A DNA stretch of 33,110 nucleotides from a virus: IMG/VR virus record IMGVR_UViG_3300030389_001516, positions 1 through 33,110 of that record; one strand, written 5' to 3'. A program made the position numbers and the translations under genes. This document shows, piece after piece, positions 5,739-33,110 of the stretch. Within the stretch, counting starts at the first letter, position 1, and each line of letters begins with the position of its first letter. The notes beneath the pieces were generated by a model. It was not told the DNA's origin. It saw only the letters and a list, made by a program, of their open reading frames with translations, and did no database searches.

Positions 5739-5938
5739 TATATCCTCCGGTATATACATACTATAGCGTGTTGTGAGGGGTAAGAAAAATTAGGGCGTAT
5801 TTTTTGAGGGGTCACCTCTGGGGAGGTGTTAGCGGGCCTTGGGGGGGGCCTATGTGTATGGGATATGAATATTCCTATATACCCTAAAATATCCCTATTT
5901 TGATATATATGATGATTAAAATATATGGTATCCCTATA

Positions 5939-5967
5939 ACTTTATTTAAAAGACTCCACTTTTTCAA
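5939..5967 (-). promoter_or_regulatory. Candidate leftward (late) promoter
   Basis: On the minus strand TTGAAA (5967-5962) and TAAAGT (5944-5939) are separated by 17 bp, giving 4 of 6 matches to the sigma70 -10 box. Transcription would begin near 5932 and enter the late genes after about 190 bases of leader. Other AT-rich hexamers nearby could serve instead, so the exact placement is uncertain. Confidence 0.4.
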
Positions 5968-6010
5968 AATTACATACCATTGTCGACGAGATATCGCAGC
6001 TCTACTCTCT

Positions 6011-6027
6011 ACCATTGTTTGAATGGT
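6011..6027. promoter_or_regulatory. Palindromic operator-like site
   Basis: Perfect 6-bp arms ACCATT and AATGGT around GTTTG. The left half with its flank (ACCATTGT) recurs 35 bp away at 5976-5983, on the upstream side of the candidate leftward promoter. It could be a binding site for a phage regulator; no protein can be assigned. Confidence 0.35.
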
Positions 6028-6118
6028 GAGGTGTCGATTATATTTTATTCCTTATGTCATAAAATATATTTAATTAATCACAACAATATACAACAATAAG
6101 ATAATTATTTTCATTTAT

Positions 6119-6132
6119 TTGTAGACAATGAC
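6119..6132 (+). promoter_or_regulatory. Control box copy 1 (TTGTAGACAATGAC)
   Basis: A 14-bp box identical to that at 6163-6176. It ends one base before the -35 hexamer of the rightward promoter. Its left part, TTGT-AG-ACAA, is a short palindrome, as expected of a dimeric repressor or activator site. The two starts are 44 bp apart, about four helical turns. Confidence 0.55.
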
Positions 6133-6161
6133 TTGACGATATATTTAAAACATGCGATATT
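6133..6161 (+). promoter_or_regulatory. Rightward early promoter, sigma70 type
   Basis: TTGACG at 6133-6138, a 17-bp AT-rich spacer and GATATT at 6156-6161, placing the start near 6168, about 20 bases before the first early ATG at 6188. It is the best host-type promoter in the window and reads into the early block. The flanking identical boxes suggest it is regulated. Confidence 0.7.
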
Positions 6162-6162
6162 A

Positions 6163-6176
6163 TTGTAGACAATGAC
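6163..6176 (+). promoter_or_regulatory. Control box copy 2 (TTGTAGACAATGAC), over the transcription start
   Basis: Second identical copy of the 14-bp box, lying just after the -10 hexamer and covering the expected start point. A protein bound here would block initiation or escape. It is followed by an AAGGGG ribosome site for the first early gene. Confidence 0.55.
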
Positions 6177-6187
6177 AAGGGGATAAA

Positions 6188-6370
6188 ATGATTACACTTT
6201 TGAAAAAAGCCTGGTCTTTAAATTGGGAACTAATATTACATAGCGTCGCACTATTCTATGTTCTCGCTGGCATCATCTTTGTCTTATATACATACGAGAT
6301 GGAAGTTGCTCGAACTATGAAAAGAGCTGCGGAAAGACAACACACAACACAACACAACATACAACAATAG
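6188..6370 (+). CDS. Small membrane protein, first early gene
   Basis: A 60-residue protein with one clear hydrophobic span (about residues 15-37, from LILHSVALF to FVLYTY), a basic N-terminus and a polar C-terminal tail. The last residues (HTTQHNIQQ) are encoded by the CAACA-type repeat tract that recurs before other early genes, so the tail may be there mainly because of that tract. The start is preceded by AAGGGG seven bases upstream. First early genes of phages are often host-takeover factors; no specific function can be given. Confidence 0.65.
   Translation: MITLLKKAWSLNWELILHSVALFYVLAGIIFVLYTYEMEVARTMKRAAERQHTTQHNIQQ
6336..6369 (+). repeat. CAACA-rich leader tract 1
   Basis: ACAACAC units repeat here just before the ribosome site of the gene at 6380. 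Related tracts lie at 6531-6560, 7171-7197, 7374-7394, 9636-9648 and 12015-12027. They contain no G in their core and should be unstructured RNA. Confidence 0.6.
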
Positions 6371-6379
6371 GAACGTAAA

Positions 6380-6532
6380 ATGAGTCGTTTAAATAAAATC
6401 GATTTACGAGACAGGATTTTACTTTATTCAATAGGTATTCTTCTTTTATGCATGCTTTATGGAATACATTATCTTGATAATAAATCACATTTAATGATGT
6501 GCATTTATTTAAAACATGTGCCTAATTGCTAA
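6380..6532 (+). CDS. Small membrane protein
   Basis: A 50-residue protein (start MSRLNKIDLR) with a hydrophobic span at about residues 13-32 (ILLYSIGILLLCMLYGIHYL) and a short Cys/His-containing tail ending HVPNC. An AGGAA site lies seven bases before the ATG, and the upstream CAACA tract separates it from the previous gene. It is shorter than usual gene-calling cut-offs. The adjacent gene is also a small single-span membrane protein, so the pair may act together at the host inner membrane. Function unknown. Confidence 0.6.
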   Translation: MSRLNKIDLRDRILLYSIGILLLCMLYGIHYLDNKSHLMMCIYLKHVPNC

Positions 6533-6560
6533 CACCACAACACAACACAACACAACAAAA
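6531..6560 (+). repeat. CAACA-rich leader tract 2
   Basis: CACCACAACACAACACAACA directly before an AGGAA ribosome site. Its CCACAACACAA portion is exactly complementary to the TTGTGTTGTGG arm of the hairpin at 11982-12030. Confidence 0.6.
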
Positions 6561-6960: not shown

Positions 6961-7226
6961 AAGACCAAAGGATTAACATGTCTGAGCTTCAATCACTGGT
7001 TGACTATCTGAACAAGGAAACAGATAATAGGTATGGTTTTTCTGTAGCCTATCGGAAAGGAGGCGTAACACTACAGAGAAACGGAATAGATGAATCAAAA
7101 AAAATGACCAAGCAAAAACTATTCGACTTCATTCATGGGATGTTGTCGGGAATATGGCTTATTCAAGAGAACACACACACAACACAAGGACAACACAATG
7201 ACAGAAAGAGAACAGAGAACGCTTGA
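6957..7226 (+). CDS. Hypothetical early protein
   Basis: An 89-residue protein that starts at an ATGA overlap with the preceding stop. Residues 5-75 look like a small alpha/beta domain with a YGFSVAYRKGGVTLQ strand pair, followed by a Gln/Asn/Thr tail translated from a CAACA tract. Its last 29 bases overlap the next gene, which begins at 7198. No family recognised; a small early modulator of host functions is a reasonable guess from position only. Confidence 0.55.
   Translation: MKDQRINMSELQSLVDYLNKETDNRYGFSVAYRKGGVTLQRNGIDESKKMTKQKLFDFIHGMLSGIWLIQENTHTTQGQHNDRKRTENA
7171..7197 (+). repeat. CAACA-rich leader tract 3
   Basis: ACACACACACAACACAAGGACAAC-type tract containing an AAGGA ribosome site and running up to the ATG at 7198. 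Unlike the other tracts it lies inside the coding end of the previous gene. Confidence 0.5.
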
Positions 7227-7410
7227 GACTCTGACCATTGAGATAGAAACTATTGAAGGCTTTCTATTAAGCATTGAAAAAGACAAGCAAAGGACAACAA
7301 GAAAGCAATACCGAAAAGAGAAACGCTTTTTTCAAAATGAATTGTACATAGCAATGAATCGATTCAAACAACTAACACACAACATCATAACAAAGGACAT
7401 GAACAAATGA
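7198..7410 (+). CDS. Small helical early protein
   Basis: A 70-residue, strongly charged, helical protein (start MTEREQRTLETL) with a probable coiled coil across residues 3-60, rich in Lys, Arg, Glu and Gln. The ATG at 7198 is preferred over an upstream in-frame ATG at 7135 because of the AAGGA site eight bases upstream. Its stop overlaps the next start by 4 bp. Function unknown. Confidence 0.55.
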   Translation: MTEREQRTLETLTIEIETIEGFLLSIEKDKQRTTRKQYRKEKRFFQNELYIAMNRFKQLTHNIITKDMNK

Positions 7411-7805
7411 GACACACCACAACAGAAACACATAAGCTTATGCTTGACTTAATCGACGGTATTCGACGCTCACCAGGACTATCCCAAGGAGTAAAGCACA
7501 GAGCTGAGAAGCTAAGGGAAAAGCTTGACGGTATGGGACACACAGACGGAGTCTATGAGATAGGCGATCTGCACGAGATAGCCGAGCAATCTATATGCGA
7601 TCAAGGATTTGAACCACCGATGAGATACAATATTCATACGGCTAACTGTCCGCCAGAGTGGGACCATGCACACATAATATCTCGTATGGCTTCACATGTA
7701 ATTGAGCCGACAACATGGGATGAGATAGAGAATGATGTCATACCTGAAGCAATAAAGAACCACATCGATGAGCTTGTTTACAATGCTTTCGATAGGAGCG
7801 TATGA
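7407..7805 (+). CDS. Hypothetical early protein
   Basis: A 132-residue soluble protein with a helical N-terminal half rich in Arg and Lys and a C-terminal half containing His, Cys and Trp residues (CPPEWDHAH, TWDEIENDV). It begins at an ATGA overlap and ends one base before the start of the DnaA-like gene, so it is probably translated with it. I do not recognise the family and see no catalytic motif. Confidence 0.6.
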   Translation: MRHTTTETHKLMLDLIDGIRRSPGLSQGVKHRAEKLREKLDGMGHTDGVYEIGDLHEIAEQSICDQGFEPPMRYNIHTANCPPEWDHAHIISRMASHVIEPTTWDEIENDVIPEAIKNHIDELVYNAFDRSV

Positions 7806-7806
7806 C

Positions 7807-8259
7807 ATGAACCCATATATCAAAAAGATAAACGAGTTAGATTTAAAAGTCATCAAGCTTCAGACAGAGAACGATAAGCTTAGAAAGCTTCTTAGTCCAA
7901 GACAGAAACGCATAGCCGAGAATAAAATCATACCGATAGATCAACATCCATTCAGACGATTCATTCATTGCATTGTCAATCATTGCTCTGATAAGTTTAA
8001 GGTTCCTACATACATGTTTGAACGTCAAGGCAAAGACCATAGAGTAAGCAGAGCCAGACAGACAGCATGGTATCTTATGAAGCTACATGAAGACAGGATA
8101 CAGCTAACAGAAATGGGTCGTTTTTTTGGTCGTAACTGGTCAACGGTTGCATCTGGAATACGACGGGTTGAATCTGTAGTGACCAAGCATAAGCAAGGCA
8201 TAGCACTATCGAATGATGAGCTTAGACAGATAGAAACTATTCATTCATTTGGACGTTGA
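7807..8259 (+). CDS. Stand-alone DnaA domain-IV-like DNA-binding protein
   Basis: A 150-residue protein. Residues 5-30 form a likely coiled coil, and residues 50-125 match the C-terminal DNA-binding domain of bacterial DnaA: the helix around SRARQTAWYL (81-90) and the signature region GRFFGRNWSTV (104-114), equivalent to the FG-R-D-H-S-T-V motif that reads DnaA boxes. The AAA+ ATPase domain is absent. It could bind DnaA boxes on host or phage DNA, competing with host DnaA or helping phage initiation. The start at 7807 has AGGAG eight bases upstream; a 13-codon longer form from 7768 would overlap the previous gene. Confidence 0.75.
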   Translation: MNPYIKKINELDLKVIKLQTENDKLRKLLSPRQKRIAENKIIPIDQHPFRRFIHCIVNHCSDKFKVPTYMFERQGKDHRVSRARQTAWYLMKLHEDRIQLTEMGRFFGRNWSTVASGIRRVESVVTKHKQGIALSNDELRQIETIHSFGR

Positions 8260-9594: not shown

Positions 9595-9635
9595 AAAGGG
9601 TAGGACATGGCTGCTCGGCTAATGTCCTACCCTTT
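9595..9635 (+). terminator. Strong hairpin after the ribbon-helix-helix gene
   Basis: Perfect 14-bp inverted repeat, AAAGGGTAGGACAT (9595-9608) and ATGTCCTACCCTTT (9622-9635), loop 13 bases, preceded by a run of A and followed by TTT within the arm and then ACAC. It is probably a partial terminator, processing site or attenuator between the regulator and the initiator gene. The weak U-tract makes full termination doubtful, and on the opposite strand the A run would give TTTTTT. Confidence 0.6.
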
Positions 9636-9664
9636 ACACACACAACAAAGGAACGTGTTGCATC

Positions 9665-10531
9665 ATGAACGTATCACACAAGCAAAGGAGTGTAAAGTTG
9701 AACGGATTATTTACACCAATACCACAAGGTCTACGATATACATTTGTCGATGTTGACAGACCCGCATCTGACATAGAATGTTTTTACTGGACCATAACGC
9801 AGCTGAGACAAGGCAAGACACTAAGCATAAGGGTCATTGCAAGAGCATGTAAAATAAGCAGACACAAGGCCAGAAAGATACTCGAAGAAAGCCAAAAATT
9901 AATCGGCCAGGAGTCGGCCACCAAGCGGCCAGCAATCGGCCAGCAATCGGCCAGGAGCAAGGGACCAGTACGTCTTTCAATAGTGGAAACCAGCCAGCAA
10001 TCGGCCAGCAATCAGCCAGAGAGCAGCCAACAGACAGACAACATAATAATAGAGAGTAAGAGTAAGAGTAAAGATATAATTAATTATACCAAAAAACCAT
10101 TGGGAAAAAGATGCAAGCCGGAACTTGTAACCAAGCAAGTTGGTGATGTTTGGAATCATTGGTATTCATTCAATGCAAAGACAAGGACAGTCAATGGTGA
10201 GTGCGCCAGGGTTATCAGGACAGCATTGAAGAACAACTACACAGTAGATGAATTAAACCTGATTGTATCCTGGGCAATGGAAAGCGAAGACTACAAATGG
10301 CAGAGAGAGAACGGCTATCAGTATTGTAAAAACTTCATGAACCTGGATAAGATTGACGGCAACCATGAGAAAGCACAAGATTGGAGCGAATCAGTAAACG
10401 CCCCAAATCAGGACGATAACAGGTCTTTTATTGATAAGGCATATGATGCCCTAAGTGATTGGCGATATGGGCCTAACGGCTATTTGCTTCCGAAATACGG
10501 AGGCCAATTTAGGCCAGCAGGAGACTACTAA
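9665..10531 (+). CDS. Lambda-O-like replication initiator with internal origin
   Basis: A 288-residue protein with a winged-helix/HTH N-terminus (helix-turn-helix at about 52-74, LSIRVIARACKISRHKARK), a Ser/Gln-rich linker (79-123) and a C-terminal helical domain (about 150-245, VWNHWYSFNAK to YCKNFMNLDKI) like that found at the end of many phage replication proteins. The linker is encoded by nine 11-bp direct repeats, so gene and origin coincide, as in lambda O. The N-terminal domain would bind the repeats and the C-terminal part would contact the loader encoded next. Start ATG at 9665, after an AAAGGA about 11 bases upstream, so spacing is long. Its TAA overlaps the next ATG by one base. 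Confidence 0.78.
   Translation: MNVSHKQRSVKLNGLFTPIPQGLRYTFVDVDRPASDIECFYWTITQLRQGKTLSIRVIARACKISRHKARKILEESQKLIGQESATKRPAIGQQSARSKGPVRLSIVETSQQSASNQPESSQQTDNIIIESKSKSKDIINYTKKPLGKRCKPELVTKQVGDVWNHWYSFNAKTRTVNGECARVIRTALKNNYTVDELNLIVSWAMESEDYKWQRENGYQYCKNFMNLDKIDGNHEKAQDWSESVNAPNQDDNRSFIDKAYDALSDWRYGPNGYLLPKYGGQFRPAGDY
9901..9955 (+). repeat. Iteron cluster A, five 11-bp units
   Basis: Five head-to-tail units AATCGGCCAGG, AGTCGGCCACC, AAGCGGCCAGC, AATCGGCCAGC, AATCGGCCAGG. Consensus AATCGGCCAGC. The 11-bp period keeps every unit on the same helical face and is not a simple amino-acid repeat, since three units (33 bp) are needed to return to frame. Confidence 0.85.
9988..10031 (+). repeat. 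Iteron cluster B, four 11-bp units
   Basis: Four units AACCAGCCAGC, AATCGGCCAGC, AATCAGCCAGA, GAGCAGCCAAC, starting 32 bp after cluster A, about three more repeat lengths and so nearly in phase. The last units drift from consensus. Confidence 0.75.
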
Positions 10532-11148
10532 TGGCACACCCTATGACAATAGAAGAAAGTCTACGAGAGTTTGTAACCAATTGGGGTCGTGGCCAGGAGC
10601 ATATAAACAAGCTTCTATCCATATGGCTTTATGAGTTTGCACAAACACCAGACAAGGTATTATCTGGAGCCATTCGCAGACTCATGAGAGAATCTACTGC
10701 TTCATTCATTCCACCATTGGGAGTTGTTAGAGACTATGTATTGGCAGAGAACAACGGAAGCGTAGGTATTAAGTCATACAACAAATGCAATGACTGTAAC
10801 CAGCATGGCATGAGATGGGTAGCGATACACTACAATGAAGCACCAAGATCGTTTAGTCGTTATCATGGCGAACCATTCTGCTATCACTTCACTTGCGCTT
10901 GCTCCTGTGATTTGGGAAAGGCTAAGAAAGAAACGACGATACAAACCATTGTAAACAATCTTGATAATGCAATGGCAAGACATAACCGTATCAGATATTA
11001 TTATATCAATGGAGATGGAAAGCCATTAACATCACAAGAGTCTACATTGGAGGAGACATGGCAACAGAACCAGGAGCTGATTCAATCCCAAGGGGTCAAC
11101 CCTTACAGAAAAATAATCTCTCGACTATTGCAGGAGCCCACAATGTAG
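10531..11148 (+). CDS. Helicase-loader-like replication protein with a Cys cluster
   Basis: A 205-residue protein immediately after the initiator (one-base TAATG overlap). Residues 1-75 are a helical domain of the type seen in phage helicase loaders and replisome organisers (WLYEFAQTPDKVLSGAIRRL). Residues 84-126 hold Cys86, Cys89, Cys117, Cys122, Cys124 and Cys126, a probable zinc site. No Walker motifs are present, so it is not an AAA+ DnaC-type loader; a lambda-P-like role, delivering host helicase to the initiator-bound origin, is inferred from position. A DNA-binding zinc protein is the alternative. Confidence 0.6.
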   Translation: MAHPMTIEESLREFVTNWGRGQEHINKLLSIWLYEFAQTPDKVLSGAIRRLMRESTASFIPPLGVVRDYVLAENNGSVGIKSYNKCNDCNQHGMRWVAIHYNEAPRSFSRYHGEPFCYHFTCACSCDLGKAKKETTIQTIVNNLDNAMARHNRIRYYYINGDGKPLTSQESTLEETWQQNQELIQSQGVNPYRKIISRLLQEPTM

Positions 11149-32813: not shown

Positions 32814-33110
32814 TTATTTTCTTTGAGATAGCAAGTATTCATACAATTCTACTGCTTTCATTTCTTTTGCGTTAGGTGGTGCAGTAATACCAGCACGCTT
32901 ACCATTGGCAATTTTTAATCCAGCAGCTCTTGCAGCACGTCTTCTATTTTCTTCTTTCATTGTAAGCGCATTGTTTTGTTCTTTTGCAGCTTTGCCTTTA
33001 ACAATCCAATATGCTTGTTCTAATGTAAGGTTTTCATTTGCAACCAATACTGTCTTAACTTCAGCTTTAAACTTATCGTCAGTCTTTAACTCTTGATGTT
33101 CATCCATAAA
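32814..33110 (-). CDS. Scaffolding protein, C-terminal part (continues at 1-631)
   Basis: This is the end of the scaffold frame that starts at 631; base 33110 corresponds to base 79, and the ATG seen at 33107 is an internal Met in frame with the true start. The visible part is charged and helical (DEHQELKTDDKFKAEV), then Ala/Arg/Lys-rich (RRRAARAAGLKIANGKR), ending LYEYLLSQRK. Basic C-terminal helices of scaffolds usually bind the capsid subunit, in line with the major capsid gene being next. Confidence 0.8.
   Translation of the reverse strand, partial: FMDEHQELKTDDKFKAEVKTVLVANENLTLEQAYWIVKGKAAKEQNNALTMKEENRRRAARAAGLKIANGKRAGITAPPNAKEMKAVELYEYLLSQRK
33034..33110. repeat. Terminal direct overlap, right copy
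   Basis: Identical to bases 3-79. Removing one copy gives a circle of 33,031 bp with an uninterrupted scaffold gene. Confidence 0.9.

Follow-up and report, generated by a model that had tools for sequence, protein, structure and literature searches.

The window analysed here is the whole of IMG/VR record IMGVR_UViG_3300030389_001516, from a small environmental phage, positions 1 to 33,110 (33,110 bp). Its ends, 1–79 and 33032–33110, overlap by 79 bp, of which 78 are identical, and the joint between them is spanned by a contig of a related phage, L003; the record is therefore a closed, essentially complete map of ~33,031 bp. Despite this overlap, the record is listed as lacking end repeats. 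Profile scans of its genes recognise a terminase with T7-like similarity, a podovirus major capsid protein, and RusA. Among the genes scanned, which leave some open reading frames aside, no DNA polymerase, primase, or helicase was recognised.

A putative replication initiator gene of 288 aa lies on the + strand at 9665–10531 and has homologues in two related phages, L002 and L003. The next gene (205 aa, 10531–11148, + strand) starts at the initiator's stop codon and is the initiator's neighbour in both relatives too. Its product has no family match in profile searches and is a probable helicase loader, judged by position and a cysteine-rich motif only. Earlier in the map, at 7768–8259 on the + strand, is a gene for a 163-aa protein that carries the DnaA C-terminal DNA-binding domain (PF08299, E 1.3e-10), also found in both relatives; the protein could bind host DnaA boxes. 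Between the preceding small open reading frame and the initiator gene stands a strong hairpin at 9595–9635 (14-bp perfect inverted repeat, −30.4 kcal/mol, z −5.5), which resembles a terminator or attenuator placed before the initiator gene. Several early genes have A/C-rich leaders (ACAACACAACAC) directly before the ribosome-binding site, at 6333–6366, 6531–6558, 7168–7203, 7374–7400, and 9637–9650. Early-gene leaders reach 84% C+A in 45 nt, against at most 69% for late genes, and may serve as an unstructured translation enhancer.

Within the initiator gene, nine 11-bp units on the + strand form two clusters. Five units occupy 9901–9955 (starts 9901, 9912, 9923, 9934, and 9945) and four occupy 9988–10031 (starts 9988, 9999, 10010, and 10021), exactly as a preliminary description of this DNA had claimed. 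Eight of the nine lie within two mismatches of AATCGGCCAGC, the ninth, GAGCAGCCAAC, is a weaker match to the consensus, and a degenerate tenth unit, AGACAGACAAC, can be listed at 10032–10042 (+ strand). The 11-bp unit is asymmetric, with no internal dyad. The clusters are separated by 32 bp, and the step from unit 5 to the next unit measures 43 bp, 1 bp short of 4 × 11, in agreement with the proposed near-phase spacing. The motif CRGCCAG has eight + strand copies in 33.1 kb, seven of them in the array, and none on the − strand. Elsewhere in the closed genome there is no second iteron-like array of comparable strength.

The periodicity resides in the DNA. At shift 11 the best self-match over 44 nt scores 36/44, and no shift from 5 to 30 gives a higher value anywhere in the window. 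That score was reached by none of 2000 synonymous recodings, which keep the peptide and follow the codon usage of the phage's early genes (mean 22.3, maximum 33), by none of 2000 permutations of the gene's own synonymous codons (maximum 35), and by none of 500 codon-order shuffles taken over all shifts. The 11-bp period is thus not a by-product of the encoded peptide, as had been proposed. Each 11-bp step shifts the reading frame by one base, so the peptide contains no repeat matching the unit.

Conservation was assessed in the window phage and its two relatives, three closely related sequences in which the 288-aa protein is 90–91% identical. All nine units are kept in both relatives. Positions C4, C7, C8, and A9 are invariant in 27 of 27 units, whatever their codon position, while position 6 is not G twice and position 5 alternates between A and G. 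None of the 36 invariant-core nucleotides varies, including the 13 at third codon positions; elsewhere, 86 of 244 third positions do. The peptide encoded by the units varies more than the remainder of the protein. Variable codons change the amino acid rather than staying silent in a ratio of 13:3 in the units against 31:71 elsewhere in the gene (Fisher p 1.6e-4, a guide only, the sequences being few and related). A conserved unit core together with a changing peptide favours a function of the repeats at the DNA level. The preliminary description had held that relatives keeping the peptide and losing the DNA repeats would speak against it; the opposite is seen.

Directly after the array lies a candidate DNA unwinding element (10043–10092, + strand), with three purine-rich AGAGTA repeats at 10053–10071 followed by an A+T palindrome at 10075–10088, which matches the purine-rich repeat and AT-rich stretch described earlier. 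By nearest-neighbour stability over 50-nt stretches, 10043–10092 is the least stable segment of the early region (rank 0.9998) and ranks at ~0.995 for instability across the genome, and cluster 1 has about the highest stability of the whole window. Bases 10053–10088 are identical in all three phages. An adjoining, easily melted A+T-rich stretch, one element of the lambda O plan, is accordingly present.

The protein itself is divergent. A phage family annotated as replication initiation protein, phrog_16167, matches residues 80–247, which comprise the linker and C-terminal domain, at a weak E of 1.7e-4. The C-terminal part alone matches it at E 0.0022 and also touches phrog_20981 (E 0.0091), a family matched too by the initiator L013, which has a Phg_2220_C domain. 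In the N-terminal part, weak matches predict with low confidence a helix-turn-helix (HTH) at codons 50–84 (9812–9916, + strand), a low-confidence structure model places a helix at residues 66–84, and a profile alignment sets residues 54–87 on the HTH of O/DnaD-like initiators in a sensible register that is not significant. A match to an IS21 transposase (NF033546, E 0.0016) falls far short of its cut-off and was taken as generic HTH similarity. Profile searches gave no family match to the DnaD-like/O-like phage initiators phrog_2514, phrog_345, and phrog_186, and profile comparison with them was not significant. A tblastn search with the protein matched none of the annotated phages, the genome collection yielded no relative, and a sequence search of the PDB returned nothing. 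The AlphaFold model of the protein, built from three sequences with a pLDDT of 33, is too weak to rely on, and a fold search with it was discarded as meaningless.

The suggested HTH N-terminus and helical C-terminus like those of replication proteins stand as an architecture, with weak HTH signals, and the suggested profile search returned phrog_16167 but none of the DnaD-like/O-like families. The identity of the protein as an initiator is supported by the weak direct profile match and more strongly by the order of HTH, repeats, linker, and helical C-terminus; this reading is strengthened because annotated O/DnaD-like initiators carry 11-bp repeats at the corresponding place. From its sequence, the protein can be placed in the O/DnaD-like class only weakly.

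The 32-bp spacer between the clusters (9956–9987, + strand) encodes SKGPVRLSIVE, a peptide identical in all three phages. Its pN is 0.000 and its pS 0.080, against a pN of 0.11–0.13 in the flanking unit-coded segments. Residues 102–110, encoded by the spacer, form a predicted beta strand in the low-confidence model, and the peptide resembles the wing strand (VTIxNWxxY) of the O/DnaD-like class. Nine other initiators also have 11-bp CRGCCA arrays; the strand motif could be located in eight of them, and in every one of these the array comes after the wing strand. In the L013 model, the array encodes a low-confidence linker (pLDDT 34–43), presumably disordered, that follows a confident winged-helix domain (~residues 10–110). 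Structural neighbours of this domain are winged-helix proteins at a weak E of about 0.1 and include entries titled “Structure of initiator” and “N-Terminal domain of DNA binding protein”. From the conservation and the weak model, we infer that in the window phage the wing loop houses five units and the other four follow the strand, whose coding bases carry none. A first cluster that seems to lie within the DNA-binding domain is a new feature.

These features are best explained if 9901–10092 is a replication origin embedded in the initiator gene, a reading that is very probably correct given the anatomy and conservation of the segment. Repeats, DNA-level conservation, an adjacent least stable stretch, gene order, and uniqueness in the genome are the observations behind it, and with the architecture of the protein they sustain the earlier proposal of an origin inside the initiator gene. 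The winged-helix N-terminal domain of the initiator would bind the array with one monomer on each 11-bp unit, in head-to-tail order and almost entirely on a single face of the helix. The filled array would then strain and melt the adjoining purine/A+T-rich stretch at 10043–10092. The C-terminal domain, with the product of the next gene as loader, would recruit the replicative helicase of the host, whose replisome would then copy the phage genome. Cumulative GC skew, which had been suggested as a check, follows gene orientation; it is uninformative on the origin and was dropped as evidence.

Initiators often autoregulate. The units could therefore be operators for repression or timing of their own operon, with the origin elsewhere, such as in the A+T-rich intergenic region at 5760–6190. 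The array does lie within a transcribed operon, and the 5.5–6.5 kb region is A+T-rich and partly non-coding. This arrangement is nonetheless improbable, since the array sits 240 bp into the gene, where promoter-like sites are no commoner than by chance, the genome has no other iteron-like array of comparable strength, and the adjoining unstable stretch is needed by an origin and not by an operator. Initiation by the DnaA-domain protein at DnaA boxes, with some other role for the repeats, would agree with the PF08299 match but is very unlikely: DnaA-box-like sites number 3 against 6.6 expected, with none between 5 and 13 kb, and the protein lacks an AAA+ domain, as its match is limited to the C-terminal part of DnaA. 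A tandem duplication born of chance or slippage, without DNA-level function, would be tolerated by a poorly conserved linker peptide, yet it is scarcely credible where the DNA core is kept while the peptide changes and where the period and position recur in other initiators not detectably related.

The plan of an origin within an initiator gene is already known, and what is new is a divergent initiator that uses it. In lambda, the loader gene P follows O. The lambda origin lies mid-gene in its initiator, with iterons and then an A+T-rich stretch (PMC3349717, PMC7466680), namely four 18-bp iterons and 38 bp of A+T-rich DNA in gene O (PMC3349717). The window shares this order, whereas lambda has a single array of 18-bp iterons and the window has nine asymmetric 11-bp units in two clusters. 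The preliminary description's comparison with the lambda O/ori plan is therefore apt for iterons inside an initiator gene but not for lambda proper; the origins of the phage L/Sf6 type are closer, because the unit is 11 bp with no dyad. Gene 18 of phage L contains six imprecise 11-bp repeats named as the likely origin (PMC8022706), and Sf6 is annotated in a similar way. Three initiator genes, namely Salmonella phage L gene 18, Shigella phage Sf6 gene 43, and the HK106 O-like gene, resemble that of the window: each contains two clusters of 11-bp direct repeats, which separate the part for DNA binding from the C-terminal part and are followed by an A+T-rich stretch. They differ in iteron (TGTCCAACGGA), in their 3+3 units, in having both clusters after the wing strand, and in a following helicase gene where the window has a small loader-like gene; sequence comparison detects no relation between their initiators and the window protein. 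The lactococcal replisome organizers TP901-1 ORF13 and Tuc2009 Rep2009 are reported to bind direct repeats inside their own genes, which act as origin (PMC8965321).

The period recurs more widely. Viral contigs were scanned for four CRGCCA motifs at a given period, and an array was counted only if its open reading frame matched a profile of annotated phage initiators, since several period-11 matches in other contigs were simple repeats in spurious open reading frames. At period 11, 11 of 41 contigs carry such an array; at period 10 none of 30 does, and at period 12 there is none among the 120 matches listed. DnaD-like initiators L007, L009, L013, L015, L039, L043, L044, L051, L058, and others share with the window the 11-bp period, the CRGCCA core, and the protein region, but their proteins are not detectably related to the window protein and their single array lies after the wing strand. 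Open reading frames in L029, L030, L035, L047, and L048 are replication-like and hold 11-bp CRGCCA arrays with no initiator-profile match; they are possible additional divergent initiators. Among ten annotated initiators similar to L013, the best self-match in the linker is at shift 11 in nine, in a sample chosen by protein similarity to L013, which was itself found via its repeat, with several members related to one another and some of the selecting alignments including the linker. Their units are quite different, for example TGTCCAACGG, GAACAGCTACC, ACAAATCAACA, and GCAAACGAATC. These sequence comparisons are new evidence that an 11-bp period, often with a CRGCCA core, recurs in O/DnaD-like phage initiators.

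One further idea, which we rate somewhat below even, is that unrelated initiator lineages share a spacing rule of 11 bp, about one helical turn, often with a CRGCCA core, under which the reading frame steps through its three phases and the DNA code is kept rather than the peptide. In the window phage, cluster 1 would have moved into the wing, placing recognition surface and target in the same bases. The open literature searched yielded no paper stating a common 11-bp rule.

The locus is well supported as an origin of a familiar kind that lies in an unusual, divergent gene, and not as a new category, its function being read from anatomy and conservation. A complete small phage genome in which annotation recognises next to nothing thereby gains a candidate origin and initiator. 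An 11-bp period in the DNA of an early gene offers a simple, alignment-free marker of divergent phage initiators and origins in metagenomes, and an 11-bp spacing common to phages of Proteobacteria and Firmicutes suggests a shared binding geometry.
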